From the NCBI RefSeq assembly GCF_000186865.1, contig NW_008705569.1, positions 173,959 to 237,958 of the forward strand: a stretch of 64,000 nt of DNA, written 5' to 3'. Below are positions 6,954-64,000 of this stretch, in pieces. Under the pieces are notes generated by a model. The model saw only the letters and a list, made by a program, of their open reading frames with translations, was not told the DNA's origin and did not search any database. The position numbers and the translations under genes are program-made. Source of the DNA: Aureococcus anophagefferens. Lineage: Eukaryota > Sar > Pelagophyceae > Pelagomonadales > Pelagomonadaceae. Within the stretch, counting starts at the first letter, position 1; each line of letters starts with the position of its first letter.

Positions 6954-8662
6954 TCAGGCCCAGGTGTTGGACCGCGCGAGGCGCTGCTTCGAGAGCCGCG
7001 CGACGTCCGCGCGGTACTCCTGGACGTGCTGCTTCTCGACGGCGAGGGCCGTGGCCATCTTCTGGACCTCGGACTGGAGCTGGGGCAGCATGAGCGCCAT
7101 CTGGGCCGTCGGGCGCCAGACGGGGTTCGGGTGGAGGAGCGCGGCGACGCAGTCGCGGAGGTCGGCGGGCGTCGTCGCGGGGAAGTCCGGGCTGCCGTCG
7201 CGGAGCGCGTGCCAGGCCGGGCCGTTGGGCGCCAACGGCGCCCGCTTCAGGAGCTCGAAGGCCGTCGCGCCGAGGGAGAAGACATCGCATTTGGTCAAAT
7301 CGCGGTCGACCTTCTCCGACGCCGGCGTGAAGTCGTCGTCGTCGAGGAGCTCGCGCGACATGTAGCGCGAGTCGCCCTCGACGACGTCGCCGCCGCCGGA
7401 CTGCTTCTGGGTGGCGAGGCCGAAGTCGCCGAGCTTGAAGGTCGCCTCGCCCTTGAGGAAGACGTTGCCGGGCTTGATGTCGAGGTGCACGAGGCCGTTG
7501 CGGTGCAGCAGCTCGAGCGCGAGGAACATCTGGCGCAGGAAGGCCCAGAGGTTCTCCGGCGTCGGGTGGAAGCGCTGGCGGTGCACGCGGCTCTCGAGGC
7601 TCGCGTCGCAGAGCTCCGTCTGGATGAACAGCCGCTCGTCCTCGATCCACGCCTGGGCAGCAAAAGGGTGCGAAATTCCCAACTTCAAAGGCTCCTATCT
7701 CGGTCGTTTTCCGCTCGTTTCGGCTGATTTTTGGACGAGCGATCATCTCTCGGAGCGCTCTCGACGCGTGGATGCTTTTTCCGGAACGCGCGCGCGCGGA
7801 ACACTCATGTTGAAGCGACGTTGAATCACCCTTGTCCTGCCCCGATCCACGCCTGGTAGTAGCGGACGACGTGCTTGATGCCCTCGTGCGCGTCGTCGCG
7901 CGCGGACAGGGCCGCCAGCGCGAAGACCTCCTTGAGCGTGCGGTCGCGGTGGAGCTGGCCCTTGAACTGGTGCTTCGTGGCCTTGACCGCGTAGTGGCAG
8001 CCGTCGATGCGGCTCTTGACCTTGTGCACGGTGCCGAACGAGCCGCCGCCGACGTACTTGACGACCTCGAAGTCGTGGCGGAAGCGGCTCTCGGTTTCCG
8101 CGGGCTCCGCGGCCTGGCCGAAGCCGCCGCCGAAGAGGCCCCCGCGCCGCGCGGGCGCCGCGGGCGCGCGCGCCTTGAACGCGGACGCGGCGCCGCCGCC
8201 GTCGCACGACGACTGGCTCAGGTCCACGCTGTCGCAGCGGTTCAGGTCCTTGGGCGCGAAGGGGTTCACGTTCGCCGCCGGCGGCGCGTCGACCATGGCC
8301 GCGCCGCCGCCGCCGCCGCCGAAGAGGCCCCGCGCGGGGCCGGCGCCCGACGGCATGCGCAGCGAGAACCCGCAGTCGCCCTCGTCGTCGCTCACGCCGT
8401 CCCCGACGTCCCCGTCGCTGTCGCAGATGTCCGTCGTCGTCGACGCGCAGCTCGCCGGCGTCCCCTTGGTCCGCGGCGTCCCGAGCTTGGGCTGCTTCCG
8501 CGGCCGCGAATTCGGCGGCGACGCCATCATCGCGTCGCCGTCGCTCATCGACATCTGCCCGAACCCGAACTTCGCCTGGGGGTAGTAGTCCTGCATGGCC
8601 ACCGACGGGGGGCTCGGCGGCTCCTCGTTGGCGGGCGAGCCGGGGACCGGGCTGAGGAACAT
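6954..8662 (-). CDS. WEE1: Wee1-like inhibitory CDK kinase
   Basis: Exons are complement 7853-8662 and 6954-7652 (502 residues). The first 170 residues are disordered, acidic and proline-rich. The kinase domain begins at FEVVKYVGGGSFGTVHKVKS with the VAIK-type lysine in YAVKATKH. It continues with RYYQAWIEDERLFIQTELCD, the catalytic loop HLDIKPGNVFL, DFGLAT in place of plain DFG, and EGDSRYMSRELL. This EGD-RY segment is a Wee1/Myt1 signature. The likely role is phosphorylation of CDK on its glycine-loop Tyr to restrain mitotic entry. The single intron is a group B introner, and removing it rejoins the Wee1 motif YYQAWIEDE exactly. Myt1 is less likely because no membrane segment follows the kinase domain. 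Confidence 0.88.
7653..7844 (+). mobile_element. Introner element, group B, copy 1 (intron of the Wee1 gene)
   Basis: 192-bp element in a minus-strand gene. The 8-bp duplication (GCGTGGAT on the gene strand) lies at 7845-7852 and 7645-7652. Ends are imperfect inverted repeats (GGGCAGCAAAAGGG and CCCTTGTCCTGCCC). The spliced intron is complement 7653-7852. Its GC donor is the first two bases of the duplicated target and its AG lies in the element end. Confidence 0.9.
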
Positions 8663-9032
8663 CGTGTGCTTCGCGGCGGTTTTTGGACGTTTGGAAGCTG
8701 CTTCGACCGTTCCGCGTCGAATTTTTTCACGCGCAGCCGGCGGTCGTGTGTCGCGGCGGTAGTGAGCGTGCTGCGATGTGTTTCAGCGCGTGAGTGTGGC
8801 CGTAACGTGGTGCGCGCGCCGCAAACCGTGGAGGCGGAGGGCCAACTCAAAAAGCTGGGAGAAAGAGCGGGAACCACCTCGGCCAAAATGTTTGGTGTTG
8901 ACGAGCACTTGACGCGCAGCCGCGGATCCGAGTTAGTATTTAAGTTAGTATGTACATCGCGGGGTCGCAGCCGCCTATTCTACAGGGGGGAGGGGTTGGT
9001 GAGGAGCTGTTGACACGATACAAACGGGCAGA
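8663..9032. other. Intergenic region upstream of the Wee1 gene
   Basis: 370 bp without a supported gene. It presumably holds the Wee1 promoter and the 3' end of the next gene. A locally AT-rich patch near 8930-8955 contains GTTAGTAT twice. No RNA gene is recognised. Confidence 0.4.
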
Positions 9033-11230: not shown

Positions 11231-11261
<31 letters not shown>

Positions 11262-14799: not shown

Positions 14800-15190
14800 T
14801 GACAACATCCCCCAGAAACCCCCGGACGACGCCGACGAGCTCGTCGCGGTCCGGGAAGAGGCCCGCGGCGCCGTGCTCCTGCGAGTCGACGTGGTACACG
14901 GCCATGGCGTCGCCGAGCCGCTCCCGGATGGCCCCGGCGACGGCGACGTCGCGCGCGTTGCGGCCGCCGACGACGCACTTCGCCGGCGCGGTCGTCGGGG
15001 CGAACTCGGAGAAGACGCCCGCGTCGAAGGCGGCCATGTCGTTGCGCCAGGGCGAGAACGCGACGACGGCGCCCGTCGCGCGCGACGCGTGGCGCAGAGC
15101 CCCGAACGCGCCCTGCGAGCTGCCGAGGAAGGACACCGCGTCGTACTCGCCCGCGAGGTTCGCGAGGAAGGCGCCGAGGGCGTAGGACCG
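14786..15190 (-). pseudogene. Truncated duplicate of the hydrolase exon at 16809-17336
   Basis: About 390 bp nearly identical to the last exon of the ligase/LRR/hydrolase gene. It encodes SFLGSSQGAFGALRHASRAT and a matching tail to EHGAAGLFPDRDELVGVV. Homology stops near 15184, so the N-terminal part of the fold is missing and no upstream exon is visible. The frame is open from an ATG at 15136. Its end overlaps the MFS stop region by 14 bp. A short expressed protein cannot be excluded, but a dead duplicate is more likely. Confidence 0.65.
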
Positions 15191-15313: not shown

Positions 15314-16596
15314 CTACGGGCACTCGTAGCAGCGCGGCTGGTTCTCGTAGGGCTTGTTGCGGTGGCAGCCCTTCTTCTTCTCGCGCGCCGTGAGCTTGAG
15401 CTTGTAGAACCGGCACTCGCGGTGCGAGATGCGGTTGTGCGTCGTCGAGCCTACCAAATGCGTCGGTAACGAGTTTCGTCGTGTTCCCGGTCGAACTCTC
15501 TCGGAAATCACCACGGCCGCAGGACGCTGCGTCGACCGCAGCGGCACGGCTTCAGCTTCGCGGCCTCGTGGCCGCGCTTGCACGCCGCCGAGATGGCGCG
15601 CGCCTTGGCCTTGGCGGGGAGGTTCGCGAACTTGACCTGGCCCTTCGCGCACTTCGCCGCGTGCTTGACCTTCGCCGGCCCCGCCTTCATGCCCTTGCCC
15701 TTCGTGCTCTTGCAGCCGCCGGCCTTCGCTAACTTCTGGCCCCACTGCTCGCGCGTCTTGTGCTGCATGGACTCCTTCGCGTGTTCGGCGAGGTCGTCGC
15801 CCGTGAGCTTGTGCCGCGCCGTGCGCTCCGCGACCCAGTTGGTCGCCGTCTCGCCGGGCGGCGTCAGGTGCATGCCGTAGAGCGGATTCGTCGTGTCCGT
15901 GATCTGCGACACGTACTTCAACTGGTCCTCGTCGAGCGGGAACACCTTCCGCGGCGACATCTGGTGGCAGACCTCGGGCACCGACTCCTTGCCCATCTCG
16001 ATGACCGTGGCCTCGTCGCAGAGGGTCATGGGCCCGCGGAGGGCCGGGCCGCAGATGAGCCAGGAGCGGACGTCGTGGCCGCTGCACCAGACGCGCGACG
16101 TCACTCGCGGCGACTGCGCGGACCCGCAGTAGAGCAGGTCCCCGTACTTGCCCCAGTCGACGCAGCGGTGGCTGAAGTAGACCTCGATCAGCTCGTAGCG
16201 GTCGGGCGCGACGCACCGCGCCGTGACGAGCATCTGGAGGTACGCGTCCACGTACGGCGCCACGTCCACGTCGTCCTCGTGCGTGAAGAGGCGCGAGCCC
16301 TTGGGGACCGCGTGGTGCTGCGTGAGCTCGAGGAAGTTGCGGTAAAGCGTCGTGAGGCCGAGACTCTCGATGAGCTTGTTCCGCGCGGCCTTGCGGCTGA
16401 GCTCCTTCGTCTTCGCCCACCAGCCGGTGCCGTGCGGGCCGCCCGCGCGCCGGCCGTTGCCTTTCTGAATGTACGGCTTCCGCCGCGCCGCCTTGACGAG
16501 GTGGTCGCGGTCGACGATTTCGAAGATGGTGTCGAGCTTGTGCATCCCGGTGGGTAATTTCGTCACGGAACCGCGGGGCCAGTCGTCGACGGACAT
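15314..16596 (-). CDS. Uncharacterised Cys/Lys-rich protein with EDDV motif
   Basis: Exons complement 15537-16596 and 15314-15450 (398 residues). The middle section, YRNFLELTQHHAVPKGSRLF followed by HEDDVDVAPYVD, resembles the acidic EDD motif of GT25-like glycosyltransferases, but this is a weak match. Residues 270-350 are Lys- and Cys-rich. The C terminus after the intron reads HRECRFYKLKLTAREKKKGC and ends in CYECP, suggesting a metal-binding or disulfide-rich tail. The intron is a group C introner read on the minus strand. It joins CRCG to STTHNRISHREC in frame. Function unknown. Confidence 0.6.
15451..15529 (-). mobile_element. Introner element, group C, copy 2
   Basis: 79-bp element reading CAGCGTCCTGCGG to TTTGGTAG on the minus strand. 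The downstream target copy is GCTCGACG (15443-15450). The upstream copy is GTCGACG (15530-15536), one base shorter. The intron is complement 15451-15536. The missing base appears to have turned a GC donor into GT. Confidence 0.82.
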
Positions 16597-16808: not shown

Positions 16809-19800
16809 TTAATAACATTCGCGAAACCCCCTGACCCCGACGAGCTCGTCGCGGGTAGCAACATCGGCCAGCAACCCCTTGACGACCCCGACGAGCTCGT
16901 CGCGGTCCGGGAAGAGGCCCGCGGCGCCGTGCTCCTTCGAGTCGACGTGGTACACGGCCATGGGGCCGCCGAGTCGCTCCCGGATGGCCCCGGCGACGGC
17001 GACGTCGCGCGCGTTGCGGCCGCCGACGAGACACTTCGCCGGCACAAGCGTCGGGGCGAACTCGGAGAAGACCCCCGCGTCAAAGGCGGCCATGTCGTTG
17101 CGCCAGGGCGAGAACGCGACGACGACGCCCGTCGCGCGCGACGCGTGGCGCAGAGCCCCGAACGCGCCCTGCGAGCTGCCGAGGAAGGACACCGCGTTGT
17201 ACTCGCCCGCGAGGTTCGCGAGGAAGGCGTCGAGGGCGTCCGCGTTTTGCGTGTAGGAGCTCCGCTCGAGGTCGAAGAGGTAGCACACGTCGACGTCGAG
17301 CTTCGCGGCGTCCAGGACCAGCCCCCACTCCCCGACCTGTGTGGAAATCAACCACTGGTTTGGGTGGTCCTGACCAAACTTCAGAACTCTCTATCTCGAT
17401 CAAATCGACGTCGATTCGGCTGATTTTTGGACGCATCGATTGCTCTCGTCGAGTTCTCGAAGCCCAGCCGAAGAGCTTGTGTCAAAACATTCGAATACGC
17501 TCACATTGAAGTCGGGTTGAAGATTTGATTTCCACACAGTCACCGACGCCCCCGATCGCGAAGCAGACGACGCAGTGGCGATGGCTCCTGCGGACGTGGA
17601 AGTTCGCGAAGGGCTGGGCGCGGTCGCACCGTCCGCGGACGACGGCGCCCGCGAGGTGGTCCGCGGGGCAGGTCTCGTCGACCCAGGCGAGCGCCGACGT
17701 CACGGGCGGGATCGTCGCGAGCTTCGGATTGCCGAGAAGGAAGAGCCCCTTGAGGTACCGTAGATTCGCGAGGTCCGGCGGCAGCGTCGAGAGGTCGTTG
17801 TACGAGAGCTTCAGCAGGCGCAGGTTCGGGGGCAGTCTCGCCGGGAGCGCCTCGAGGTCGTTGTACTCGAGGTTCAGCGTCGCGAGGTTCGTCAAATCGC
17901 CGACGGCCGCCGGCAGGGACCGCAGGCGGTTGCTGTTTAAATGGAGCGCCTCGAGCGTCGAGGTGGCGCAGAGCTCGCCGGGGAGCTCGCGGATCTCGTT
18001 CTCGTCGGCCGTGAGCAGGCGGAGCCGCGGAAAGGCGTTCGCGGGCAGCGCGGCGAGGCGGTTCGAGTTGACGATGAGCGTCTCGATGTTCGGGCCGAGG
18101 GCCGGGAGCGCCGTCAGGCGGTTCGTGTCGACGAGGAGCGACTCGAGGCTCGCCGGGAGGTCCTCGGGGAGCCTTTCCAGGCGGTTCTTGTGGGCCCCGA
18201 GGATCCGCAAGTTCGCCGGGAGGCGCGGGAGCGCCGCCAGCCGATTCTCGTGGACGACGAGCTCCGCGAGCGTGTCCGGGAGGCCCTCCGGCAGCGCGCG
18301 CAAGCCGCTGCTCTCGACGCGCAGCACGCGGAGGCGCCGGAGCCCCGCCAACGGCAGAGCCTCGAACGCGTTTCGCGACGCGCGCAGCACCTCGATGGTC
18401 TCCGGAAGCTCGAGCGTCTCGAGCCCGTTGCCGTCGACGGAGAGCGTCGCGAGGCGAGGCGGGAGCGGCGGCAACTCCGCGAGCGCGTTGTCCTCGAGGC
18501 TGAGGATGCGCAAATTGTCGAGGCCCGCGGCGGGGAACGTCGCCAGCCGGTTCTCGTCGACCGTTAACGCCGTCAGCGACGGCGGGAGGACGCCCTCGAG
18601 GCTCGCCAACCGGTTCTCGTTGAGCGTGAGCGCCTCGAGGCGTCGGAGTTGCGCGAGTTCCACCGGTAGCGCCTCGAGCGCGTTGCCGTCCGCGAAGAGG
18701 TTCCGCAGCAGCGCGAGTTCACCGACGGCCGCGGGGAGCGCCGCCAGCCGGTTGTTGCGGACGCTCAGCGCGTCGAGGGCCCAGAGGCAGCCGACGGCGT
18801 CCGGGAGCTCCGCGAGGCCGCTTCCCGAAAGGTCGAGGTAGGCCAGCGGATTCACGGACACGCCGTCGGCCTCGACGGCGTGCCAGCGGCGCAGGAGCCG
18901 GCCGCAGAGCAGCCGCGCGTTCGTCCGCGGGGCCGCGTCGGCGAGCGACAGCGGCCGCCGGAGCGGCGCGAGGGCCGCCTCCGCGGCGGTCCGCAGGACG
19001 CGGCGCGCGACGTCCGCGACGGAGACGACGGTCCCCGTCTCCGGCGGCGCCGCCGCGGCGACCGCGTTCGTCTCCGGCGGCGCCGCCGCCGCGGCCCGCC
19101 GCGCGAAGACGCCCATGCTGTCGACGCCGTCCGCGGCGTCGTCGACGACCTCGTCGACGCGCCGGAGCCGCGGCGGCGCGGGCGCGGCCCAGTCGACGTC
19201 GCCCGCGTCGAACGTCGCGCGGTCGCCCTCGAGCGTCGGCAGGCCCAGGCGCGCCGCGAGGCCGACGCGCAGCGCCTTGCCCGTCGGGCCCAGGGGCGCG
19301 CCGCTCGCGACGACGAGCGCCGCGGGCAGGTGCGCGTCGCGCAGCGTCCTGGCCGCGTGGCGCCGCAGGTCGCCGAGGGACGCGACGCGGCCCGGCCGGA
19401 GCGCCACTAAAACGCCGACGGCTTCCCCCAGGCGCGCGTGGGGCGCCGCGAAGGCGACGACGGAGCCCACGGCCGCGTGCGACGCGAGCGCATGTTCCAC
19501 GGCCAGCGGCGAGAGCTGCTCGCCGCCGCGGTTGATCGTCTCCTTGAAGCGGCCGTCGAGGACGAGGTGGCCGTCCGCCAAAAAGGTCCCGCGGTCGCCG
19601 GTCCGCAGGTAGCCGTCCGCGAACAGCGCCGCGTTCGGGTCGGCGTCGCCCCGGCGCTCGTAGCCCGCCGTGACGCAGGCGCCGCGGACGCACACCTCGC
19701 CCGTGGCGACCTCGTCCCGCGACGGGTGCGGCGCGAGGAGCCTGACGTCCGGGCCGCTCGCGGGGCCGACGGTGTCGAGGCGCCGGCCGCGGCCGCGCGG

Positions 19801-29297: not shown

Positions 29298-31425
29298 ATG
29301 CTCGCCGCGCGCCTCGCCGCGCGCCCGCTCCTGCGCCTGCGCCGGCTGCCGCTGGCCGCTTCGTACTCGGCCGTGCCCGACGAGCCCTGGGCCGCGCCCA
29401 AGGAGCCCTGCGAGCTGCGCTCCCGCTACGACGCGCTCGTCCAGGAGGGCCGCGACGACGAGCACGACGCCGCCTGGGATCGCCTGCGTCCGGAGGGCGT
29501 CGCGGCCGCGGTCGCGCGCGCGCGCTACGACGTCGCGGAGACGCTCACCGGCGACAAGGCCTGCGAGGCCGCGGGCCTCGACGCGCTCGGCATCACGCGG
29601 CCGACGACGGTCTTCCGCAACCTGACCTTCGAGGAGCTCCGGACCCACGAGCTCGCCAACGGCGAGGGCGTCCTCGCGCGCGCGGCCTACGGGGACACGT
29701 TCGCCGTGGACACGGGCGAGTTCACGGGCCGGTCGCCGGGCGACAAGTGGACCGTGCGGCGCGCCGGCTCCGAGTCGGAGAAGCACCTCTGGTGGGGCCC
29801 CGTGAACAAGCCCATGCGGCCCGAGGTCTTCGACGAGCTCCTCGCGGGGGCCGTCGACTACTTCGACGGCCTCGACAAAGTCTACGTCGCGGACCTGCAC
29901 TGCGGCGCGAGCGCGGGCTCGCGCATCAACGTCCGCTTCGTGCACGAGCTCGCGTGGCAGCAGCACTTCGTGACGAACATGTTCATCCGGCCCGAGTCGC
30001 TCGCGGGCTTCCTGCCGACGGACGAGCGCGTGGACTTCACGATCGTCAACGCGTGCGCGCTGCGGAACGAGCGCTGGGAGGCGCACGGCCTGAACAGCGA
30101 CGTCGCCGTCGCCTTCGACCTCGAGCGGAAGCTCGCGGTCATCTACGGCACCTACTACGGCGGCGAGAACAAGAAGGGCATCTTCTCGCTCATGAACTAC
30201 CTGCTCCCGCTCCGGGGCATCCTCTCGATGCACTGCTCGGCGAACGTCGGCGAGTCCGGCGACGTCGCGCTCTTCTTCGGCCTCAGCGGCACGGGCAAGA
30301 CGACGCTCTCCGCGGACCCGAAGCGCGCGCTCATCGGCGACGACGAGCACGGCTGGGACGACGCGGGCGTCTTCAACTTCGAGGGCGGCTGCCAGTGTGG
30401 AAATCAACCACTGGTTTGGGGGGTCCCCACCAAACTTCAGAACTCTCTAGCTCCGTCAAATCGACGTCGATTCGGCTGATTTTTGGACGAATCGATTGCT
30501 CTCGTCGAGTTCTCGAAGCACGGCAGAAAGCTTTGCGTCGAAACGGTCGCATACGCGCACATTGAAGTCGGGCTGAAGATTTGATTTCCACACAGGCGGC
30601 TGCTACGCCAAGACCGCGGACCTGCAGGAGTCGTCGGAGCCCGACATCTTCAAAGCGATCCGCGCGGACGCCATGCTCGAGAACGTCGCGCTCGACCCCG
30701 AAAGCGGCGCGCCGGACTACTCGGATCTGTCCAAGACGCCCAACGGCCGCGTGTCGTACCCGATCCACCACATCCGGACGTTCCACCGGCCGCAGGCCGC
30801 GGGCCACCCGGAGACCGTGGTCTTCCTCACCTGCGACGCCTTCGGCGTCCTGCCGCCCGTGTCGCGCCTGAGCGAGGGCCAGGCCATGTACCACTTCCTC
30901 TCCGGCTACACGGCCAAGGTCGCCGGCACGGAGCGCGGCGTCGCCGAGCCGACGGCGACGTTCTCCGCGTGCTTCGGCGCGGCCTTCCTCACGCTCCACC
31001 CGACGGTCTACGCGGACCTGCTCCGCGACAAGCTCCGGCGCCACGGCGCGACGGCCTACCTCGTCAACACGGGCTGGGCCGGCGGCGGCTACGGCGTCGG
31101 CGAGCGCATGGCCATCGACGTCACGCGCGCGTGCGTCGACGCGGTCCTCGACGGGTCCATCCAAAACGCGGACTTCGCGACGACGCCCGTCTTCGGCCTC
31201 GACGTGCCGACGGCGCTCCCGGGCGTCGACGCGGCGCTCCTGGACCCGCGGCGCTCGTGGGCGGACCCCGCGGCGTACGACGCGGCGCTCGAGAAGCTCG
31301 GCCGCCTCTACCGCATCAACTTCGAGCAGTACGACTCCCCCGACGTCGCGGCCCACGGGCCCGATGTCTCCCTCACGGCCGACGAGCGCGCCGAGGTCGC
31401 CTACCTCGTCGCCAGCGAGAAGTAG
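29298..31425 (+). CDS. PCK: ATP-dependent phosphoenolpyruvate carboxykinase
   Basis: Exons 29298-30384 and 30596-31425 (638 residues). It converts oxaloacetate and ATP to phosphoenolpyruvate, CO2 and ADP, for gluconeogenesis or carbon recycling. The N terminus [20 protein letters not shown] resembles a mitochondrial presequence. Diagnostic blocks are [27 protein letters not shown], the P-loop [11 protein letters not shown] (near 330) and GDDEHGWDD. After splicing, FNFEGGCYAKT is restored. [17 protein letters not shown] follows near the C terminus. These define the ATP-type enzyme, not the GTP type. The intron is a full-length group A introner, and it provides the cleanest demonstration of the splicing mechanism in this window. 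Confidence 0.95.
30393..30595 (+). mobile_element. Introner element, group A, copy 2 (PEPCK gene)
   Basis: 203 bp. The 8-bp duplication GCGGCTGC is perfect (30385-30392 and 30596-30603). The left end CAGTGTGGAAATC has one mismatch to the right end. The intron is 30385-30595: GC donor from the target copy, CAG acceptor from the element. The invariant PEPCK sequence fixes the junction. Confidence 0.95.
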
Positions 31426-35640: not shown

Positions 35641-35842
35641 NNNNNNNNNNNNNNNNNNNNNNNNNNNNNNNNNNNNNNNNNNNNNNNNNNNNNNNNNNNN
35701 NNNNNNNNNNNNNNNNNNNNNNNNNNNNNNNNNNNNNNNNNNNNNNNNNNNNNNNNNNNNNNNNNNNNNNNNNNNNNNNNNNNNNNNNNNNNNNNNNNNN
35801 NNNNNNNNNNNNNNNNNNNNNNNNNNNNNNNNNNNNNNNNNN
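35641..35842. other. Assembly gap of 202 undetermined bases
   Basis: Run of N. It removes the promoter of the ARMC6 gene and the 5' end of the following oxidase gene. The stated gap size may not be the true one. Confidence 0.98.
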
Positions 35843-37288
35843 GGCGCGGCCTCCGGGAGCCGTCGAAGACCTGGCCCTGGTGGTGGTTCGGCGTCGACCA
35901 GCGTCTCGCGGTCGCGACAATTTTCGAGAGATTTTGACCGGGACGCGACGGAACGTCGTCACCGACGCGCTCGGTAGGCGTCGACACGGACTCGACGCTC
36001 GCGCCGTCGACGCTCTACGCGTCCACGGGCAACGGCGACTTCTCGTCGCCCGAGGAGCTGCGGGCCGCGTTCCCGGAAGACGCGTGGGCGGAGCTCGAGG
36101 CCGCGGGCGCCGCCATGGCGAACCTCGCGGCGTCCGTCGGCTGCGAAGCGCACGAGGACGACGCCTGGGCCGCCCTCGACGGGTCGACCTTCGAGAGCTG
36201 GATCCGAGCGAACGTGGCGAAAGACGAGGCTCGGGGCGCCCTGCGGTCCATGTGCCGGGGCATGATCGCGCAGGAGCCCGCGGGCGTGAGCCTGCTGTTC
36301 ACGGTCCGGTCGCTCAAGGGCTGCTGGTCCAGCGGCGACGACGACCAGTACCGCATCCGCGGGGGCACGCAGGGGCCCCTGCTCGCCCTCGCGGCGCGCT
36401 TCGGCGGCCGCGTCGCGCTCGATGCGGAGGTCGTCGCCGTGACGGCGAGCGACGGGAAGTGGCGCGTGGCGCTCCGGTCCGGGGCCCGCGTGTTAGCGAA
36501 ATACGTCGTCGTCACGGGTCCTCCCGCCGTCGTCGCGAAGATCCGCGCGCCCGCGTTTTCCGCGATCACGAAGCAGCTGCTCCAGCGCATGCCCATGGGC
36601 GCGTCGACGAAGTACTTCCTGATCTACGACGAACCGTGGTGGCGCGCCTTCCACTCGGGCCAGGTCGTCGTGACGGACCCGGACCCGGCGACGGCGCGGG
36701 ACGTCTACGTCTACGCGTGCGAGGACCACAGCCCCTACAGTGGCCTGCGCGCCCGCGGCCCCGGCGCGCTTATGTGCTGGATCGAGGGCGCGTGCAACCT
36801 GCGCTTCGACGGCCTCACGGAGGCCGAGCGGCGCGCGCACGTGACGTCGCTCTTCGCCGGCGCGTTGAAGAACGACTCGCGGCTCTACGCGCCGACGCAC
36901 GTCGTCGCCCACGACTGGAAGGCGCAGCCCTTCGCGGAGGGCGCCTACACGTCCTACTTTCCGCCGGGATGAGTCAGGGCGCGTTCTGGCGCGAAGCGCT
37001 CGCGCCTGTGTGGAAATCAACCACTGGTTTGGATTTTTGGACGGATCGATTGCTCTCGTCGAGTTCTCGAAGCACGGCCGAAGAGGCTGCGTCGAACTTG
37101 TCGCATATGCGCACATTGAAGTCGGGTTGAAGATTTGAATTCCACACAGGCTCGCCCAGCAGAAGGCGCCGGGCCTCTTCCTCGCGGGCTCCGACTACGT
37201 CGCGGGCTACGGCGCGGGCTATATCGAGGGCGCCGTCCGCTCGGGCCAGGCCGCGGCGGCGGCCATCCTCGGTTCACTACTTCCGTAA
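35843..37288 (+). CDS. FAD-dependent amine-oxidase-like protein, 5' partial, with a frameshift
   Basis: The start is lost in the gap. Inferred exons are <35843-35890, 35978-36997 and 37150-37288. The C-terminal part is clear: QAPSYFPPG-like AYTSYFPPG, MSQGAFWREAL and GLFLAGSDYVAGYGAGYIEG with GAVRSGQAAA, the FAD-binding tail of flavin monoamine oxidases. A TGA at 36970-36972 interrupts the frame. Reading resumes one base out of phase at MSQGAFWREA, so one base seems missing near 36966-36969. This may be a sequencing error or a true lesion. Two introners interrupt the gene: group C joins WWWF to GVDTDS, and a shortened group A joins REA to LAQQKAPG. Confidence 0.7.
35899..35977 (+). mobile_element. 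Introner element, group C, copy 4 (amine oxidase gene)
   Basis: 79 bp, CAGCGTCTCGCGG to CTCGGTAG. Perfect duplication GCGTCGAC at 35891-35898 and 35978-35985. The intron is 35891-35977 with a GC donor. Confidence 0.86.
37006..37149 (+). mobile_element. Introner element, group A, copy 3, internally deleted
   Basis: 144 bp instead of 203: about 59 bp are missing between CTGGTTTGG and ATTTTTGG. The terminal repeats are kept. Target copies GCTCGCGC and GCTCGCCC (36998-37005, 37150-37157) differ once. The intron is 36998-37149, GC donor, so the shortened element still gives correct splice ends. Confidence 0.9.
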
Positions 37289-37340: not shown

Positions 37341-39046
37341 CTAGGCGGCCGCGGCGGCCTTGGGCACCGGGTCCGGGAGCCAGGCCTGGGGCGAGGGCGG
37401 CGTCGGCATGGCGCTCGGCGAGACGGGCTCCGAGTCGGAGTCGGAGTCGGCGGCGAGCTTCTGGAAGAGCATGGAGCCCTTCTTGCTCGTGACGCGCCGC
37501 GGCGGCGGGCCGTTCGGGCTGATCTTCGGCGCGTCCTTGCCGAAGACGTCCGGCGAGTCCGGCTCGCCGGCCTCGGGCAGGCGCGGCGTGAAGCTGAGGC
37601 CGCTGCCGTTGAGCGACGGCGACCGCGCGGCCTCGGGCCGCGGCGGCAAACGCGCGCGGAAGCCCCGCGCGGCGGCCTGGAGCCGCGACGCCGCGGCCTC
37701 GTCGGCGCCGTGGAGCGACGCGACGGCGGCCGCGGCGTCGGCGTCGAGCAGCGCCGCCGCCCGGGCGAAGCGACCGACCCAGGGCGGCAGCGGGCCCACG
37801 CCGAGCTCGTCTGCCTGTGCCGAAATCAACCACTGTCTCGGCGGTCCCGGCCAAACTTCGAGCCTCTCGAGCTCGATCACATCGAAGTCGATTCGGCTGA
37901 TTTTTGGACGAATCGATTGCTCTCGTCGAATTCTCCACGGAGCCAGAACAAGTCGCGTCGAAACTGTCGCATACGCTCACGTTGAAGTCGGGTTGAAGAT
38001 GTGATTTCGGCCCGGTCGTCCGCGAGCGCGGAGCAGAACGCCGCGCCGTTGCGCGCGAGGAGGTCGAAGCCCGCCCCCGGCCAGTCCGGCTCCAGGGCCC
38101 GCACGGCGGCCCGCGCCTCGGCCTCGGACCGCTTGCAGTCGCCGAGGTAGACGGACTGGCGGTACGTGTGGCCCGGCGCGCGCCGCGGCCGGCCCGCGTA
38201 GACGCCCGTCCGCCGCCCCGCCCGCGGCCCGAAGCTCCACTCGTCGCCTAGGACCTCGAGGCCCGCGTGGAGCAGGCCCGCCTCGCCGAGCAGCGCCTGG
38301 GCCGACGGCTCGAGGTGCGCCAGGTTCGACGCGTGGCCCACGGCGTAGACGTGGAGCGTCACCGGCGCGGACGCCTTGGACGCCATGGCCGCGATGGCTT
38401 GCTCGTCGGGCTGGGGCCGCTCGCGCGGCGCGAAGGTCCCCTCGAGGCGCCCGCCGCCGCAGGCCAGGAGCGCGGCCTTGAGCGGGCCCCTGAGCGGGTG
38501 GTCGACGCGGCGGAGCGCGGGGCCGACGGTCAGCGTCTGCGCCGGCGCGTCCGTCTTGAAGCGGTCGACGCCGTCGTGGAACGCGCGCGTCTCGAGGCGG
38601 TTCGCGAGGCGCATCTCGACGACCTCGCCCTCGCCCTCGTCGTCGAGGATCGACGTCCGCCGCGGCGTCCACGTGTCCGGGCCCGCGTGGTCCCGGGGCT
38701 TCTGGAAGGCCTCGGCCGCCGCGCCCTTCAAATCCACGCGGCGCCCGAACATGCCGTAGGGCGTGCCCGGGCACTCGGGGAGCGGCTCCTCCTCCTCCGG
38801 CGCGTCCGGCGGCGGCGGCGCGGCGCCGTCGCCGTCGAGGCGCTGCGGCGACGCGTCGCTCCCGTTCCAGCGGACGCCCGGCGCCGGGTCCGGCACGGCG
38901 TAGCTGCCCGTGTCGATGTCCGTCAGATTCTCCTTGAGGCCCTTGAGCCGCTCCTCGCGCCCGCTGAAGAGGTAGGGCGTCGGCGGGTCCGAGCCCACGG
39001 GCGTCTCCGGCCGCGGCTCCGCGGCGTCGCCCGCCGCGACGGCCAT
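37341..39046 (-). CDS. PPPDE (DeSI-like) domain protein with substituted catalytic Cys
   Basis: Exons complement 38024-39046 and 37341-37814 (498 residues). The first 210 residues are disordered and Pro/Glu-rich. The PPPDE fold spans about 225-370: VTLHVYAVGHASN, LLHAGLEVLGDEWSFGP (with the family His), TYRQSVYLGDC, FDLLARNGAAFCSALADELG and PPWVGRFARA. In deSUMOylating/deubiquitylating members the N-C of NCNxF is the nucleophile; here it reads N-G, so catalysis at that site is not expected. A Cys four residues later is the only candidate. An IQ-like RLQAAARGFRARL follows. The group A intron, removed, restores CSALADELGVG. Confidence 0.72.
37815..38015 (+). mobile_element. Introner element, group A variant, copy 4
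   Basis: 201 bp with diverged ends (CTGTGCCGAAATC and GATTTCGGCCCGG) but the same core. It lies in a minus-strand gene. Target copies on the gene strand are GCGGACGA and GCAGACGA (38016-38023, 37807-37814). The intron is complement 37815-38023, GC donor. The matched changes at both ends suggest a distinct terminal subtype. Confidence 0.88.
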
Positions 39047-50496: not shown

Positions 50497-53400
50497 TTAC
50501 ACGGACCGCTGGAGCTTGGCGACGCCCTTGGCGAAGTCGCGGTTCTTCTCCTCGAGGCTGAACTTGCGGAGCGTCTTCATGAGCCCCGCCTTCATGGCGT
50601 TCTCGAGCTCGTCGAAGCGGTCGAGGATGCGCGCCTCGAGCGCGTCGACGCGCCTGTGCACGGCGCGGAGCGCGGGGGCGTCGACGCGCGGCGGCGCCGG
50701 CGGCGGCCGCGCGTCGCTCGTCGCGGGCGCCCGGAGGGCCGCGGCGCCGTCGAGGACGTCCGCGCCGCCGTCGTCGCCGCCGCCGTCCGCGGGCCGCTCG
50801 CCGTCGCCGCGCGCGACGGCGGCGTCCGGGTCCGAGTCGCGGCGCCGCGGCGCGTCGGAGAGCGACTCGTGGCGCCCGTCGGGCGGCGGCTCGACGCGCG
50901 CGAGGTCGTCGTCCGCGCGGAAGGCGAGCGTGTGCTGCGCCCTCTTCAGCCAGAGGCACGCCGCCAAAGCGACGCGCGCCGTGAGCCCGTCCGGGAGCTT
51001 CGACCGCGGCGCGGGCGGGTCGTGGCGGTGCGCGCGCACGGAGCGCTGCTCCTCGAAGTCGTCGAGCACGGACGCGTCGTGCTCCGAGGGCCCGAAGGCG
51101 TCGTACGCGCCGCCGGCCGCGCCCCCGGCGAGGCTCCCCCGGTCGCGCGGCCGGCCGCCGCGCAGGCTCCGCCCGCAGCTGCGATAGCACGACCGCGGCT
51201 CGCCGTCGTCCGCGAGGCCGTAGCGCACGACCGCGTGGCGCACGGCCGTGAGGTGGCGCGTCGACGTGAGCCGGCCGTAGAACGCCGCGCGCCGCGCGGC
51301 GACGAGGCGCCCCATGGCGACGCCGAAGTTCGGGAACTCGTCCCGCAGCGCCCGGAAGTTCGGCGCCGACAGCACGAGGAGCTCCGACGAGTCGAGGGAC
51401 CGCGCGGAGTAGGGGTGCTTCGCCGTCTTGGTGGCCGCGATGGAGTAGTGCGCGAACGAGTCGCCGCGCCGGAGCGTCGCGAAGCCCGCGCGCGGCTCGA
51501 CGTCGAGGTCCGCCGCGACGCCGGGGGGGAGCGTGATGAGCAGCGCGATGGACCCGTTGGCGATGAAGTAGAGGTCGTTGCCCACCTCGCCCTCGCGGAC
51601 GACGATCGCGCCCGGCGCGACGCGCGTCAACACCAGCTTCAGGCAGACCTTCGCGAGGCACTGGGCGTCCAAATTGTCCAGGAACGCCACGGACTGGATG
51701 ATCGCGCGGTTGTTGTGCAGCGTCACCTCCGTCCGCAGGAACGACGGCAGCTCGAGCAAAATCTCGTCCTCGTCCCAGACGGACGTCCGCTGCCAGAGGT
51801 AGGAGAAGTGGCTCCGGATCTGCAGCTTGATGGCCAGCGGGAGGTCGCGGTGCCGCATGTAGGCGTTGATGCGCGCGACCTTCTCCTTGATCTGCGTCAG
51901 GCTCATGTCCTCGCGCGTGAGCATCGCCGCGACGTCGCCCATGACGTAGCCGAGGCAGCACGTGCCCGCGAACTGGACGAAGATGGTCCAGAACATCTCG
52001 CCGTCGCTCACGGGCTTGACGTCGCCGTAGCCCACGGTCGTGAGGGTCGTGAAGGCCCAGTACCTGCGCGCGCGCGCGTCCGCGCGGGCCGCGGCGCGCG
52101 AGGAAGACGCCGCGGGCGGACAGCGCGACGACGTAGAGCCGCCAGGGGTCCGGGTAGGACGCGTCGCGGTGGTAGCCCGCGGCCGAGCGCACGGCCGCGA
52201 GGCGCTCCGCGGCCGTCACGTCGCCGAGGAGCACGTCGCTCGCGTTGCGGAGCTGCGCCTCCGAGAGGAAGAAGTCGTCGTCGTCGTTCTTGTAGAGCGC
52301 GTGGCCGTCGTTGAAGTAGTCCGCGACCCAGGTCTGGGCGCCCCAGCCGTCGCCCGCCGTGCCGCCGCCGTCGGCGATGAGCGCGAAGATGCACGCGGCG
52401 AGGTGCGCCATGAGCAGCACGCCCATGATGAGGTGCACGAAGTGGCGGCCGTCGGCGAGGAGCTGGTGGCTCGGGTCGTCGTCCCACTGGCTCGCGCCGT
52501 TCATGAGCTTGGCGAGCTTGAAGAGCTTGAGCATGCGGCTCACCTTGAGGATCTTCAAAAGCCGCGTGAGCGAGCTCGCGCGGCCCGCGGACCGGTTCTC
52601 GTTGTGCTTGATGAGCAGGAAGATGTGCGTGAAGGGCACGCTCGCCAGCAGGTCGATGGTCGCGAAGCCCTTGAGGTAGGTCTTGGCCTACCGAGCGCGT
52701 CGGTGACGATGGCTCGTCGTGTCCCCGGTCGAAAGCTCTCGAAACTCGCCGCGGGACGCCGGTCTTCGCGATGACGTAGCGGCTCTCGACGACGCCGCCC
52801 TGGACGACGATGCCCGTCTGGAACGTAATCAAAAAGTCCGCGAGGAAGCACATGTCCATGGCGAGGTTCAGCGACTCGATGGGCGAGAAGGGGCCGCTGT
52901 TGGACCGCTCGAAGCAGAGCTGGTAGGGCGTGATGATGAGGCAGAGCATGAGCACCTGCGCCGGAACCAACCAGTGGAACGCCCCGTCCGGCAAAAGCTT
53001 CGAACCTCTCGAGCTCGGTCGCGTCGACGTTGTTTCGGCTGAGTTTCGGACGGATCGTGTTCTCTCGGCGACTGCTTTTCAGACAGGAGAGCAACGATAT
53101 CCTGCAAACACATGCCTATTGAAGTCGCGTTGTTTCCTGCGCGGACGAGCGCGAAGCCCGTGCACGAGTCCCAGCGGAGCTTGAGCGGCGCGAGCGGGTG
53201 GATGACGCCGACGCGCGCGTCGAGCCAGCTCGAGATCTGGTAGAGGCCCCGGCTCGCCGTCGTCGCGTGGCGCTTCGGCGTCGTCCGCCGCCGGTCGTCG
53301 CCGCCGCGCGCCGCGAGGCCGCCCGAGTCGACGACGGCGATCTGCGCGTCGCGCCGCCGCTGCTCCACGGGCAGCTCGAGGCGCCCCTTGGCGAAGCGCT

Positions 53401-58413: not shown

Positions 58414-60828
58414 ATGGAGTCCCCCCGCGTGGTGGGCGTGGAGGCCGTGACCGTGGCCTGCCTCGACGCCCTGGAGATGCTGGAGAAGCACGCCGACGAC
58501 GAGGAGCCGCTGCGCCAGCGCTACCCGTCGACGGGCGCCCTCGCGCGCGCGCTGTACCGGGCGCTGCGGGCGCTCCACGAGCGCGAGGCCGGGTCGGCGT
58601 CGACGCTCGCCTACGTGCTCGCCTGCGCGCGGGCCGCGCGCGACGCGCTCGAGGACCTGCGGACGCGCCGGTCCAACTTCTTCGGGGCCGAGTTCCGCGA
58701 CCGGAGCCCGCTCTCGACGCTGCGCAACGTGGAGCGCAAGGTGTCGCAGCTCGCCGAGTCCCTGAGCGGCGGTCCCGCGGCGGAGAGCGGGAGCTGCTAC
58801 GTCGGCGGCGCGCTCGGCGACGACGACGCGGAGCTCGCGGTCGCCGACGTGCCGAGCCGCCTCTTCTGGATCGAGCGCTTCGGCCGCTTCTCCAGCGAGG
58901 TGCCCTGGGCCCAGTTCACGGCGTCGGTCGTCGACGAGTTCGGCGAGCAGCCCCGGGGCACGCTCGAGCTGCTCAAGCCCGCGCTCGGCGTCCGCGACGC
59001 CGCGGGCTTCGTGTCCATGGCGTCGTTCGGGCGCTTCGCGGAGCACCGGGGCCGCGGCGGCGGCTTCTACGGCGCCTTCGTGGCGCTGTCCGACCCGGCG
59101 CGGGTCGTCTACGCCATGGGCACCGTCGACGACGACGCGCAGGGCGGCGAGCCCCGGGGCAGCACAAGGGTGCGAAATTCCCAACTTCAAAGGCTCCGAT
59201 CTCGGCCGTGTTCCACTCGTTTCGGCTGATTTTTGGACGAGCGATCATCTCTCGGAACGGTCTCGAAGCGTGGATGCTTTTTCCGGAACGCGCGCGCGCG
59301 GAACACTCACGTTGAAGCGACGTCGAATCACCCTTGTGCCAGGCGAGCCCGCGCCCGCGCTCGTCGAGGGCCTGCTCGGCGTCGCCGTCGCGGCCGTGTG
59401 CTGCGGCGGCCAGCACGCGGCGGTGCTGACGGCGGCGGGCGAGGTCTACACCTGGGGCCGCGGCGGCTTCGGGCGCCTGGGCCACGGCGACGCGCACTCG
59501 CTCAAGGCGCCGCGGCTCGTCCGAGGCGCGCTCGTCGGCGTCGTCTGCGCGCAGGTCGCGTGCGGCTTCGCGTACACGGCCGCCGTGAGCGCCCAGGGCG
59601 CGCTCTACACCTGGGGCGCCGGCGAGAACGGGCGCCTGGGTTTGGGCGACGTCGACGACAGGGCAGGAAAAGAGAGCGACATGCCCAACTTCAAAGGCTC
59701 CGATCTCGGCCGTTTTCCACTCGTTTCGGCTGATTTTTGGACGAGCGATCATCTCTCGGAACGGTCTCGAAGCGTGGATGCTTTTCCCGGAACGCGCGCG
59801 CGCGGCACATTCACGTTGAAGCGAACTTGAATCTCTCTTTTCCTGCCCAGGTCGACGACCGCCACGAGCCGTCGCGCGTCGACGCGCTCTGGCCGCACCG
59901 GCCGCTCCGCCGCGTCAACGCGGGCTCCGTGCACACGTGCGCGCTGGGCGTCGACGGCGTCGCCTACTCCTTCGGCAAGCACGAGTACACGGGCCACGGC
60001 GCGGCGGCGGACGTGCTCACGCCGCGGCCCCTCGACGCGTTCGGGGGGCGCGCGGTCCGCGAGATCTCCGTCGGGCCGGGCGGCTACCACACGGTGGCCC
60101 TCGTGTCGCCCGCCGACGTCTACACCTGGGGCCACAACCGCGTCGGCCAGCTCGGCTACACGAACAACGACGTCGTGCCGCGCAACGGCGAGGGCGCGCA
60201 CTTCGTGCCGCGGCCGCGGCGCGTCGACTCCGTGTCCGGGCTCCGCGTGCGCCGCGTCGTCGCGGGCTGGGGCCACACGGCGCTCCTGACGGCCGAGGGC
60301 GCGGCCTACGTCTGCGGCCGCAACTTCCAGGGCCAGCTCGGCCTCGGCGACCCGGAGTCGTTCCCCCACAACGAGCGCGGCCACCCGTACCAGCCGGACT
60401 TTCGGCTCCTCGACCGCCTCGGCGCGAAGCGCGTCGCGCAGATCGCCTGCGGCGGCGAGCACTCCGTGGCCCTCACGGAGGACGGCGAGGTCCACTCCTG
60501 CGGCGCGGGGAACAAGGGCCAGCTCGGCCACGGCAACGTCGACAACGAGCAGTTCCCGCGCGTCGTCTCGAGGCTCAAGGCGAGCCGCCGGGACGTCCTC
60601 GAGGTCGCCTGCGGCAACAACGGCACCCTCGTGCTCTGCGGCTACTTCAACCCGCCGTCCCTCTTCGACTGCTGCGCCGAGGTCATCTGCGCGGACCCGG
60701 ACCGCTTCGACGACGTCGACGCGATCCTGCCGCCGTCCCTCGTCCAGCGCGTCCGCGCCGCGGGGGCCTCCTCGGGGGCCGCGCGGCCCGACACGGACCT
60801 CCCGGAGCCGCCGAGCGCCCAGCCCTAG
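58414..60828 (+). CDS. RCC1-repeat (beta-propeller) protein
   Basis: Exons 58414-59146, 59343-59650 and 59851-60828 (672 residues). Residues 1-245 form a helical N-terminal region of unknown type (LFWIERFGRFSSEVPWAQFT). RCC1 repeats follow: CCGGQHAAVLTAAGEVYTWG, GRLGHGD, ACGFAYTAAVSAQGALYTWG, GRLGLGD, VSPADVYTWGHNRVGQLGYT, CGRNFQGQLGLGD and ACGGEHSVALTEDGEVHSCG. Seven blades are expected for a closed propeller. This may be a Ran-GEF relative or, more likely, one of the many RCC1-like scaffolds. Both introns are group B introners 308 bp apart. Confidence 0.85.
59155..59342 (+). mobile_element. Introner element, group B, copy 2 (RCC1 gene)
   Basis: 188 bp. Perfect duplication GCGAGCCC at 59147-59154 and 59343-59350. 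The intron is 59147-59342 with a GC donor and CCAG acceptor. The sequence is highly similar to copy 3, 300 bp downstream. Confidence 0.92.
59659..59850 (+). mobile_element. Introner element, group B, copy 3 (RCC1 gene)
   Basis: 192 bp with ends CAGGGCAGGAAAAG and CTTTTCCTGCCCAG, a near-perfect inverted repeat. Perfect duplication GTCGACGA at 59651-59658 and 59851-59858. The intron is 59651-59850 with a GT donor. Confidence 0.93.
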
Positions 60829-60869
60829 GGGCGCGCATAAAAAGAGCGGTGGAGTTCCGAGCGCTCTCT

Positions 60870-61253
60870 ACAGCCGCGCTGGCCGCTCGACTTCTTTTAG
60901 TGGAAGTGGCCGCGTACTTGCGCGCGAAGGCGCACTTCTCCTTGAAGTTGAGCTTGTAGACGCGGCTCAGCCGGTCGAACTCCGCGACCCACGCGCTGTT
61001 GCACGTCATGCAGCAGTTGGTCAGGCGCGACGACACGAGGCCGTTCGCGCCTACCGCCTTGTCGTGCTCGACGAAGGTGTAGCCGCCCTGGTCGCGGGCG
61101 GCGAGCGCTTGCAGATGTAGCAGTGTTGCGTGTGGTCGAATTTGCCCTCGGCGTCCTTGAACGGCGGGAACTTGACGAAGGCGACGATCCATGCCATGTC
61201 CTGATTTCGCGGGAGCTCGTGCGTTCCGCAGCCGTGCATGATGGCGTAGTTCG
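60870..61253 (-). pseudogene. Frameshifted coding remnant with Cys/His clusters
   Basis: Two frames carry protein-like sequence in succession on the minus strand: NYAIMHGCGTHELPRNQDMA and HTQHCYICK, then one base out of phase QGGYTFVEHDKAVGANGLVS and RLTNCCMTCNSAWVAEFDRL. C-x-x-C pairs suggest a zinc-binding module. No normal-sized intron joins the frames, so a one-base lesion or sequencing error is likely. It may be the continuation of the upstream glycosyltransferase-like gene or a separate decayed gene. Confidence 0.4.
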
Positions 61254-62327
61254 TCAGTGACCCGAATCGGCACGATTCATCTGCAGAGAAGGGCACATCA
61301 CTGGATTTTTACGCATCCAGTCAAAATAATAGCTGTCATTATGCGCCAGCATGCGCTTGTAAATCGGCCCTCTCTCCTTGTCATTATGATACGTGGCAAG
61401 CTTCTCCTTGGCAAGTTTAAACTGTGTTTTTGTGAGACTGAAGTGTTCCATTGCACCCTTACAGGAGGAAATCTTGCATTTAGTACCGTTGTAATGGCCG
61501 CGTTGCGAACCTTTAAACTGCAAAATTCTTCGGTTGCACATGATAGGTGCCGTGGCAATTTTTCTTATGCCGCCCTTTAACAGTCTCCCACGCACATTAG
61601 CGCACAGCGGAGATGTCTCGTTCCAGCGATCGATCATCGTTGCAATTATGATCTTGTCTGTAGACGTACACGAACAGGGCAGATAAAGTCGCTCATCGCC
61701 ATCCACTTGAGCTATGAGCGCATTCGGGTGTCTTGATCCGAGGTCTCGAAGGTGCGCGTTTATAATATCTCGCTTGACAGCGGAAGTATACGTTATATTT
61801 GGATAATAACGCAGGTTTACACGCGGTACGGGAACATCAAGTTTGGCGCCGTGAACGAAAATGTGCAGGTTTGTAGGAGCCACACCAAGTATGTCTACAT
61901 GATGCGCTACAAAGGCACTCATATCAACGGAGTGATGGATAAAAGATAGTATGTGCATGCGTTGTGCAACACTACGCTCAATCGCGCAGAACGTCGTGGG
62001 GCAGATGCCGCACGCCACGGGGCAGGCGACCTTGGCCTTGACGCCGTGTATGACCCAGGCGGCCTTGCAGCGCTTCGCGGGCGACTTGCCGACCCACGCG
62101 CAGGTCTTCCACTTCTTCGTGCCCTGGTACCACGTCTCCGAGTCCGCGCACGCTTCCGAGAGATGGCGGGCCGAGTCCTCGACGCCCGGTAGACCATCGA
62201 CGTCCGCGTCCTCGGCGTCGTCGGACGGGACCGCCTCGGGGCTGGCGTCGGACCCCTCGAGGCCGTCGAACACCGACGCATTCGCGACGACGCCGAGCGC
62301 GAGGAGCAGGAACGCGTTCCAATTCAT
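61254..62327 (-). CDS. Secreted ShKT-like / glycosyltransferase-like chimera
   Basis: 357 residues from ATG 62327 with signal peptide MNWNAFLLLALGVVANA. Residues about 60-110 form a six-Cys ShKT-like module (CADSETWYQGTKKWKTCAWV through KVACPVACGIC). The remainder looks like a glycosyltransferase: ILSFIHHSVDMSAFVAHHVD, PNALIAQVDGDERLYLPCSC (acidic D-G-D-E motif) and MEHFSLTKTQFKLAKEKLAT. Base composition drops sharply near 61960, from GC-rich to AT-richer codons, exactly where the second part begins. The stop at 61254 is followed by coding-like sequence in another frame, so the true end is uncertain. Confidence 0.6.
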   Translation of the reverse strand: MNWNAFLLLALGVVANASVFDGLEGSDASPEAVPSDDAEDADVDGLPGVEDSARHLSEACADSETWYQGTKKWKTCAWVGKSPAKRCKAAWVIHGVKAKVACPVACGICPTTFCAIERSVAQRMHILSFIHHSVDMSAFVAHHVDILGVAPTNLHIFVHGAKLDVPVPRVNLRYYPNITYTSAVKRDIINAHLRDLGSRHPNALIAQVDGDERLYLPCSCTSTDKIIIATMIDRWNETSPLCANVRGRLLKGGIRKIATAPIMCNRRILQFKGSQRGHYNGTKCKISSCKGAMEHFSLTKTQFKLAKEKLATYHNDKERGPIYKRMLAHNDSYYFDWMRKNPVMCPSLQMNRADSGH

Positions 62328-62973
62328 CTTCGTGTGAACTGTGTAGCTAATACGGCGCGAAAGCCTGTGAGGGGGGCGCGAGGGTAAGGTCTCGGTCGCG
62401 TAGCGCGAGGAGCGGGTCCCGGCGCGTTCGGGCGCTCGGGCCCGAGGGCGTCGGCGATCCGCGGAGCGGGCGATGCGGGGGCGGGCGAGGGCGGGGCGGG
62501 CAACGTGGTGGTCGGCGGACGATGGGTCAGCGGGGAAGCGGGTTCGGGCGAAATCGGCCGATCCGAGGCGGACGCGCGATCGTCTACGATCGGCGAACCG
62601 CGGACGGGCCGCGGGATGCGGCCACGTCGCCAAGGTCGCCAAGGCCGCGCGCGACGGTCGTACGGCGCACCGCGAGGTTTCATACGGCGCGCCGCGACGG
62701 CGCGCCGCGACGGCGCGCCGCGACGGCGCGCCGTTGATTCGGTCGTCGCCCGGCCGCCGCGGCCGTTTGCCCGGAAAGCGTGGCGAGCGGTCGATTTTTT
62801 TAGGGTCGTACACGATGTGGGACGCGGGGCGGCACTATGAGGAAGGGGATGATGTGCGAGTGCGAGCGTGGGCGTGGGCGACGTCGTTGATGGGCTTGAA
62901 GACCTCATGCCGGAGCTCATGTGCGGAGCATGGTCGACGCCTCCCGCTCTCCCAGATCTCTCCCCACGCGCGT
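62328..62973. other. Intergenic region with short GC-rich repeats
   Basis: 646 bp without a supported gene. About 62685-62735 holds roughly four copies of a 13-bp word (GCGCGCCGCGACG). Presumed promoter of the ShKT/glycosyltransferase-like gene and 3' end of the LRR gene. No RNA gene recognised. Confidence 0.45.
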
Positions 62974-64000
62974 TTAGTAGAACTCGATCAGCGCGCCGCC
63001 CCCGCGCGCCTTCAGCACGACGTCGAAGAAGACGGCGATGGCGACCTCCGCGTCGGCCACGTCCGTCTTCGACTTCCTCCGCCCGGGCCAGCGCGGGAGG
63101 TGGAAGCGCTTCGGCGCCAGCACATCGCGGATCGTCTCGAGGTCGTCCACCAGATCTTCCGAGTCGCGGCTCGCGACCCAGCGCAGGTGCGACAGCCTCG
63201 GGCAGTCCATGACCACGGCCAGCACGCCGCGGATCGTGACGCCCGGCGCGTGCTCCACCGAGAAGATGCGGAGCGTCTCGCGCGACGGCCCGTTCAACAG
63301 GCAATAGAGCGCCGCGTTCGTCGCGTAGTCGCTGAGGCGGATCTCGCAGTGCGTCAGCGCGAGCCCCGCGAAAAAGGGCTCGAGGTCCTCGTCGCCGATG
63401 CAGCTGTCCTCGGGCCTGTGTGGAAATCAACCACTGGTTTGGGGGGTTCCCACCAAACTTCAGAACTCTCTATCTCGGTCCAATCGACGTCGATTCGGCT
63501 GATTTTTGGACGGATCGATTGCTCTCGTCAAGTTCTCGAAGCATAGAAGAAGAGCTCGCGTCGAAACCGTCGCATACGCTCACATTGAAGTCGGGTTGAA
63601 GATTTGATTTCCACACAGCCTCGGGCAGGATGCAGCCCGCGAGCTTCGGCGCCGCCGCCGCGACGTCGCCCAGACGCCGCTCCAAGTCCGGGCAGCCCGT
63701 CGTGCAGGGAAGCGTGAGGCGCCGCAGGTGCGGGCACCGCGCGCAGCAGTCGACGAGGTCGCCGACGGGCACGCAGGCGTCCTCGAAATCAATCGTCACG
63801 AGGCGGTCGCCGGCGGCGTCGACGATGCGCGGCAGATCGCCCGCGCCGAGCGACACGCCGTCGAAGTCCACGTGCGCGACGTCCGGCAGGGCCTCGAGCG
63901 CCTTGACGACGCGGTCGACGCGGAGCGCGTGGTTGCTCGCGTTCGTGCCGCAGTCCAGTTTCGTCAGGCGCGGGAACAGCGGCGCCCACGACTCCGCCGG
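62974..64000 (-). CDS. Leucine-rich-repeat-like protein, 5' end beyond the window
   Basis: Exons complement 63627->64000 and 62974-63415. LRR-like segments without an obvious catalytic domain: FPRLTKLDCGTNASNHALRV, RLVTIDFEDACVPVGDLVDC, CPHLRRLTLPCTTGCPDLE and CPRLSHLRWVASRDSEDLVD. The pattern (L-x-x-L-x-L/F with Cys-rich turns) resembles F-box/LRR or RNI-type proteins. No F-box is visible, but the N terminus is missing. The intron is a full-length group A introner; splicing gives AGCILPEDSCIGDEDLEPFF. Confidence 0.65.
63416..63618 (+). mobile_element. Introner element, group A, copy 6 (LRR gene)
   Basis: 203 bp, the same length as copies 1 and 2, with perfect CTGTGTGGAAATCAA ends. Perfect duplication CCTCGGGC (GCCCGAGG on the gene strand) at 63408-63415 and 63619-63626. 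The intron is complement 63416-63626, GC donor. Confidence 0.93.

Follow-up and report, generated by a model that had tools for sequence, protein, structure and literature searches.

Fourteen short elements interrupt 11 genes in a 64,000-nucleotide stretch of Aureococcus anophagefferens DNA (the window; contig C9, 173959-237958), and they are very probably, judging from their sequences, short non-autonomous DNA transposons (introners) that are spliced out by means of a donor supplied by the target. In the proposed mechanism, insertion would duplicate 8 bp of target, the upstream target copy would provide the 5′ splice site with its first two bases, and the terminal AG of the element would be the 3′ splice site. 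An insertion in coding sequence would be removable exactly when its sense-strand target begins with GC or GT, and the mRNA after splicing would have the pre-insertion sequence. The duplications, element ends, frame restoration, donor rule and orientation are read directly from the DNA; splicing itself, the transposase type and the role of selection are the parts that we infer.

Elements and target duplications in the window

All of the elements described in the earlier note, 14 in 11 genes with 8-bp duplications, were re-found (Table 1), and a BLAST search of the window with all resolved copies gave 14 clusters and no 15th. Three genes carry two elements each (A2 and A3, C5 and B5, and C4 and B3). 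Read along the gene sense, each element lies between its two 8-bp target copies, with exon sequence on either side of these. The two target copies match at 8/8 positions for eight elements, at 7/8 for four and, read by eye, at 6/8 for B5, with a one-base loss in C2; for one fixed pair of positions, a match of 6/8 or better has a chance of 0.010, or ∼1e-28 for 14/14 with C2 scored as a match. The upstream donors are GC in 10/14 and GT in 4/14. That every downstream target copy starts with G-C or G-T is likewise borne out (14/14), and since only 20.6% of random coding positions begin in this way, the chance of this is 0.206^14 (∼2e-10). In C2 the upstream copy is one base short (GCTCGACG reduced to G-TCGACG); with the C of the GC donor lost, a GT donor is left, which lies at the second G of GGTCGACG (window 15536, minus strand). 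Two donors were tried for C2, and only the one at 15536 keeps the frame.

Table 1. The 14 elements of the window, with coordinates of the predicted introns
Copy	Window position	Strand	Length (nt)	Donor	Target duplication (TSD)	TSD match	Host gene and Pfam domains
A1	7653..7852	-	200	GC	GCGTGGAT	8/8	Wee1-like kinase; Pkinase spans junction
C1	13792..13878	+	87	GT	GTCTACGT	8/8	MFS transporter; MFS_1 spans junction
C2	15451..15536	-	86	GT (after 1-base loss in upstream copy)		one base short
B1	17337..17547	-	211	GT	GTCGGTGA/GTCGGGGA	7/8	LRR protein; LRR domains upstream of junction only
C3	21256..21340	+	85	GC	GCGACAAC	8/8	Esterase-like; Peptidase_S9 match downstream of junction only
B2	30385..30595	+	211	GC	GCGGCTGC	8/8	ATP-dependent PEPCK; PEPCK_ATP spans junction
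C4	35891..35977	+	87	GC	GCGTCGAC	8/8	Same gene as B3; its piece has no Pfam match
B3	36998..37149	+	152 (shorter B copy)	GC	GCTCGCGC/GCTCGCCC	7/8	FAD amine oxidase-like; Amino_oxidase begins 2 residues before junction
B4	37815..38023	-	209	GC	GCGGACGA/GCAGACGA	7/8	PPPDE peptidase; Peptidase_C97 spans junction
C5	52688..52769	-	82	GC	GCGAAGAC/GCCAAGAC	7/8	Ion channel; Ion_trans spans junction
B5	52956..53152	-	197	GC	GCGCTCGT/GTGCTCAT	6/8	Same channel gene as C5; Ion_trans begins 6 residues before junction
A2	59147..59342	+	196	GC	GCGAGCCC	8/8	RCC1-repeat gene; RCC1-like domain spans A2 and A3 junctions
A3	59651..59850	+	200	GT	GTCGACGA	8/8	Same RCC1 gene as A2
B6	63416..63626	-	211	GC	GCCCGAGG	8/8

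Excision from the upstream-copy donor to the terminal AG of the element leaves the reading frame open through the junction in 14/14 cases, in line with the earlier claim that removing the segment from copy start to AG restores the protein, with the donor one base later in C2. The B3 junction is open only in the frame that starts beyond a frameshift near 36969, upstream of the element. Nine of the 14 junctions are crossed by Pfam domains (kinase, RCC1-like at two junctions, PEPCK, PPPDE peptidase, MFS, ion channel at C5 and B5, and amine oxidase at B3), by only two residues at B3 and only six at B5; the scan left out B6 and C2, and B1, C3, and C4 were scanned without a domain across the junction. 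A PEPCK protein (P0001, from a 3,254-bp contig in ENA) is 97% identical (621/638) and uninterrupted at the B2 junction, a protein comparison that is compatible with element-free DNA or with a spliced gene model. The PEPCK protein search had no record named A. anophagefferens among the best 120 of 7,999 matches.

The gene shared by C4 and B3 has a frameshift in 36960-36980, ∼30 bases upstream of B3, where one frame stops after ...SYFPPG and another reads MSQGAFWREA, and a run of 202 N (35641-35842) precedes C4 at a short distance, within or next to this gene. We also note a 300-bp direct duplication (14803-15102 and 16859-17158, 94% identity) that resembles a duplicated gene fragment, one copy of which is within or beside the gene carrying B1, and an island of 51% G+C at 61001-62000 in a gene-like region of a window with ∼71% G+C. 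An Rfam scan of the window at gathering thresholds gave no match.

The elements fall into three sets, A, B, and C, as previously described, but these are better regarded as two related families plus a short family C, because A and B share a common core (77% identity over 61 nt); C and A have short matches only, at chance level. Family A elements are ∼192 nt long (introns of 196 to 200 nt in the window), family B elements ∼203 nt (introns typically 211 nt, range 152 to 211), and family C elements ∼80 nt (introns of 82 to 87 nt). The 3′ terminus is CAG in A and B, and GGTAG in C. The inverted ends of family B are close enough that the same exact 15-mer is present at both ends of one copy at 8 of 20 loci, and the terminal inverted repeats of A and C are imperfect.

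Copies and donors across the genome

The genome searched comprises 49.05 Mb in 86 contigs, with 774 occurrences of the exact 15-base family B end and 372 matches to one family A end pattern. The sample of copies that were fetched includes the 30 best of each family, and is to that extent biased to similarity, together with 20 contig C1 loci that contain one or more exact family B ends and were taken in positional order; the addition of 11 more copies from the window brings the total to 122. Four were left out by the script (L049, L064, L071, and L087) and two are duplicates (L044 with the same flanks as L039, and L100 at the position of L045), so that 116 remain. L039 and L044 have the same element and near flanks on contigs C9 and C13, and represent a segmental duplication or an alternative haplotype. 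What looked like a larger element with family B ends (L110, contig C1:2651791-2652535) turned out to be two separate family B copies ∼545 bp apart (within contig C1:2651600-2652700), both in sequence called coding.

This genome search with the elements, which the earlier note had proposed as a check on duplications and donors, gave GC or GT in 107/116 copies by script (61 GC, 46 GT, and nine other), with target copies matching at 8/8 in 77/116 and at least 7/8 in 102/116. In five of these nine cases (L016, L091, L101, B3, and C2) the script had misplaced the boundary or the strand; the donor is GA in L014 and L076, which are exceptions, and L067 and L082 stay without assignment. The acceptor is AG in 112/116, the exceptions being L016, L026, L067, and L101, and in L026 the acceptor is five bases short of the duplication. 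The four copies missed by the script are compatible by eye with a G-Y donor, coding strand aside; the duplication matches only about half in L064 and L071, and L087 has a one-base indel. In the position-sampled set, a G-Y donor is found in 18/20 by script and in 20/20 when L091 and L101 are re-read from the sequence.

Coding sequence was called independently of the donor, using a third-order model that is right for 109/113 in-sample and that took the place of a first codon model (37/48 in-sample). The call is positive for 106/116 copies, compared with 76.8% of 3,000 random window positions, and for 18/20 of the position-sampled copies, with L101 and L109 under threshold.

The donor constraint was also assessed on the family B ends, genome-wide and as exact matches, A and C being assessed on fetched copies only. 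Just 6 of the 774 ends have neither G1 nor C8 of the adjoining duplication, whereas window composition predicts 40%, or ∼310, and one of the six (L035, contig C4:1103831) has a GT donor once its boundary is moved by one base. The fraction of unconstrained copies is at most 3.9% if the 774 ends are independent, 5.2% for ∼569 distinct copies (scaled from 147 distinct per 200 listed), and 7.6% for 387, such that family B copies free of the donor constraint make up at most ∼5% (4 to 8% by end counting). The reading in which the duplication provides the donor thus has support both within the window and, in the case of family B, throughout the genome.

In family B, copies without a spliceable donor are nearly absent, probably through selection and perhaps through biased insertion too. 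Of the DNA, ∼16% consists of G-Y positions on the sense strand of coding sequence, which carry at least ∼95% of family B copies, and ∼23% consists of positions not called coding, which carry at most ∼5%; the densities differ by a factor of at least ∼27 (between 18 and 36, according to the number of distinct copies assumed). Random insertion with purging of unspliced exonic copies does not, on its own, predict so few unconstrained copies. Selection against unspliceable exonic copies would by itself spare intergenic copies. A coupling of insertion itself to transcribed coding exons, in place of random insertion followed by purging, is a tentative and rather unlikely explanation.

Donor sequence context was examined in 147 distinct family B sites among 200 listed of 470 matches, which were preselected for duplications that start with G-Y and do not end in C. 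Position 2 has a strong excess of T (72 T to 75 C, compared with 35 to 112 expected), position 7 deviates weakly (24 A compared with 15.5, p 0.009), and the remaining positions show no deviation at p <0.05. When 135 distinct words were divided by class (61 GT and 74 GC; twelve tests), the GT words show no deviation beyond the dinucleotide (smallest p 0.06; 4 with A7 against 5.9 expected), and the GC words have an excess of A7 (18 compared with 8.0, p 0.0009) and of G8 (55 compared with 42.2, p 0.009). This class-wise result softens a reading in which nothing is needed beyond G-Y, and it may be that GC donors require a little more flanking sequence than GT donors do. In the fetched sample, 46 GT and 56 GC donors compare with 21 and 79 percent available among coding G-Y sites (p 2.7e-8), and GT is favored ∼threefold over GC relative to availability. 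Because position 7 does not mirror T2 among the GT words, the excess of GT more likely results from splicing selection than from target preference. Intron phase tracks G-Y availability (39/26/37, compared with 0.392/0.260/0.347 expected from availability by codon position; p 0.95).

Orientation, mobility and alternative explanations

The family B core is in the sense orientation relative to the gene in 20 copies, antisense in 25 and undecided in five (n=50). Both family B ends carry TTGATTTCCACACAG, which ends in AG, so that either end can act as acceptor, and both orientations are used. The exact ends at the gene-sense 3′ and 5′ sides number 253 and 217, respectively, and we did not adopt a better-conserved 3′ end on the basis of so weak a trend. 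Family A cores are mostly antisense (25, with three sense and one undecided; n=29), in a sample biased to A1. For family C, the GGTAG end is downstream by coding strand in 30/31 resolved copies, the exception being L067, whose boundaries are uncertain.

The first eight intron bases are specific to the site, with 128 different words at 147 listed family B sites, and match the downstream exon of the same site, which indicates that what moves is the element rather than the intron. Together with the 8-bp duplication and the inverted ends, this leads us to favor a cut-and-paste DNA transposon as the probable source. The same observations bear on the idea that excised intron RNA is reverse-spliced at new sites and that the repeats arise later, a route that, according to PMC9860276, others have proposed for fungal introners and that would fit the finding of copies almost only in coding, sense-spliceable contexts, as expected if transcripts are the target. 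Against it, a reverse-spliced intron would keep its old first eight bases, and family B has inverted terminal repeats and lies in both core orientations; we consider this route very improbable. The intron RNA of B2 does pair (z -3.5), as expected from inverted repeats, and we do not count it as evidence of function.

Less probable still is that the elements are gene-disrupting insertions that are left unspliced. The case for splicing is made from DNA sequence, which gives this explanation its opening, but the GC and GT donors are far in excess of the share at random coding sites, conserved domains cross the junctions, and the PEPCK with 97% identity is a protein without interruption. That these are ordinary old introns later hit by repeats, which are common within introns generally, is the least credible of all, since the intron contains nothing beyond the element and one 8-bp duplication in 13/14 (in C2, the element and seven bases), the donor itself lies within the duplication, and three window genes have two such introns each.

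As to the enzyme that would mobilize cut-and-paste elements of this kind, hAT transposons make 8-bp duplications and have CAGNG ends and a target pattern of nTnnnnAn. The window elements resemble hAT MITEs in the 8-bp duplication and in the C(A/T)G starts of their ends. The target pattern does not agree, since A7 is present in 4/61 GT-starting words and its excess sits in the GC words, in a test that sees only G-Y sites and in which selection hides part of the pattern; a hint of hAT from duplication position 7 is weakened by the same class-wise comparison. Profile searches of the genome with PF05699, PF14372, and PF18758 had no matches, and the controls likewise matched nowhere. A hAT-like transposase is a guess.

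Known introners and GC-AG introns in Aureococcus

Use of a target-donated donor is already known for A. anophagefferens, and what we add to the mechanism is the genome-wide numbers. The introners of this alga described by Huff, Zilberman and Roy (2016, Nature) reportedly take one of their splice sites from the duplicated target, and are described as short, non-autonomous elements with inverted ends and a phase bias that tracks target availability. The window elements are like those reported ones in the inverted ends, the duplication-donated splice site, and the phase that follows availability. The comparison with Aureococcus introners drawn in the earlier note fits: the window's proteasome alpha-5 protein is a near-exact match to an A. 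anophagefferens record (P0123; 228/245, with differences only in a few short patches). This one protein is the basis on which the sequence itself points to the species, and the PEPCK search result given above speaks against it.

The typical family B intron of 211 nt is close to the characteristic length of ∼210 bp given for A. anophagefferens introners in PMC9481584, and their direct plus inverted repeats are mentioned in PMC7789003. The introner class was surveyed by Gozashti et al. (2022, PMC9860276), who likewise cover a splice site taken from the target duplication and report insertion between nucleosomes for A. anophagefferens. An Aureococcus sp. example displayed there has both splice sites in the element and adds 12 bp to the mRNA; unlike it, the 14 window copies would add nothing. 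A non-exhaustive literature search, outside Huff 2016 and all supplements, found no statement that unconstrained copies are nearly absent or that GT is preferred over GC.

A 2011 survey places GC-AG introns at 39.6% in A. anophagefferens and terms this an enigma (PMC3033335). GC accounts for 79% of coding G-Y sites and for about half of introners (56/102 fetched; 75/147 among the sites listed). Target-donated donors, with this availability and the ∼threefold preference for GT, provide a direct account of the high GC-AG share, and other introns would dilute the GC share further, below the approximately one-half seen in introners. This account may already be in Huff 2016. Introners are known to have brought about intron gain on a large scale, and with minimal donor needs beyond G-Y and few unconstrained copies, whether they are targeted to such sites or purged from others is directly testable.
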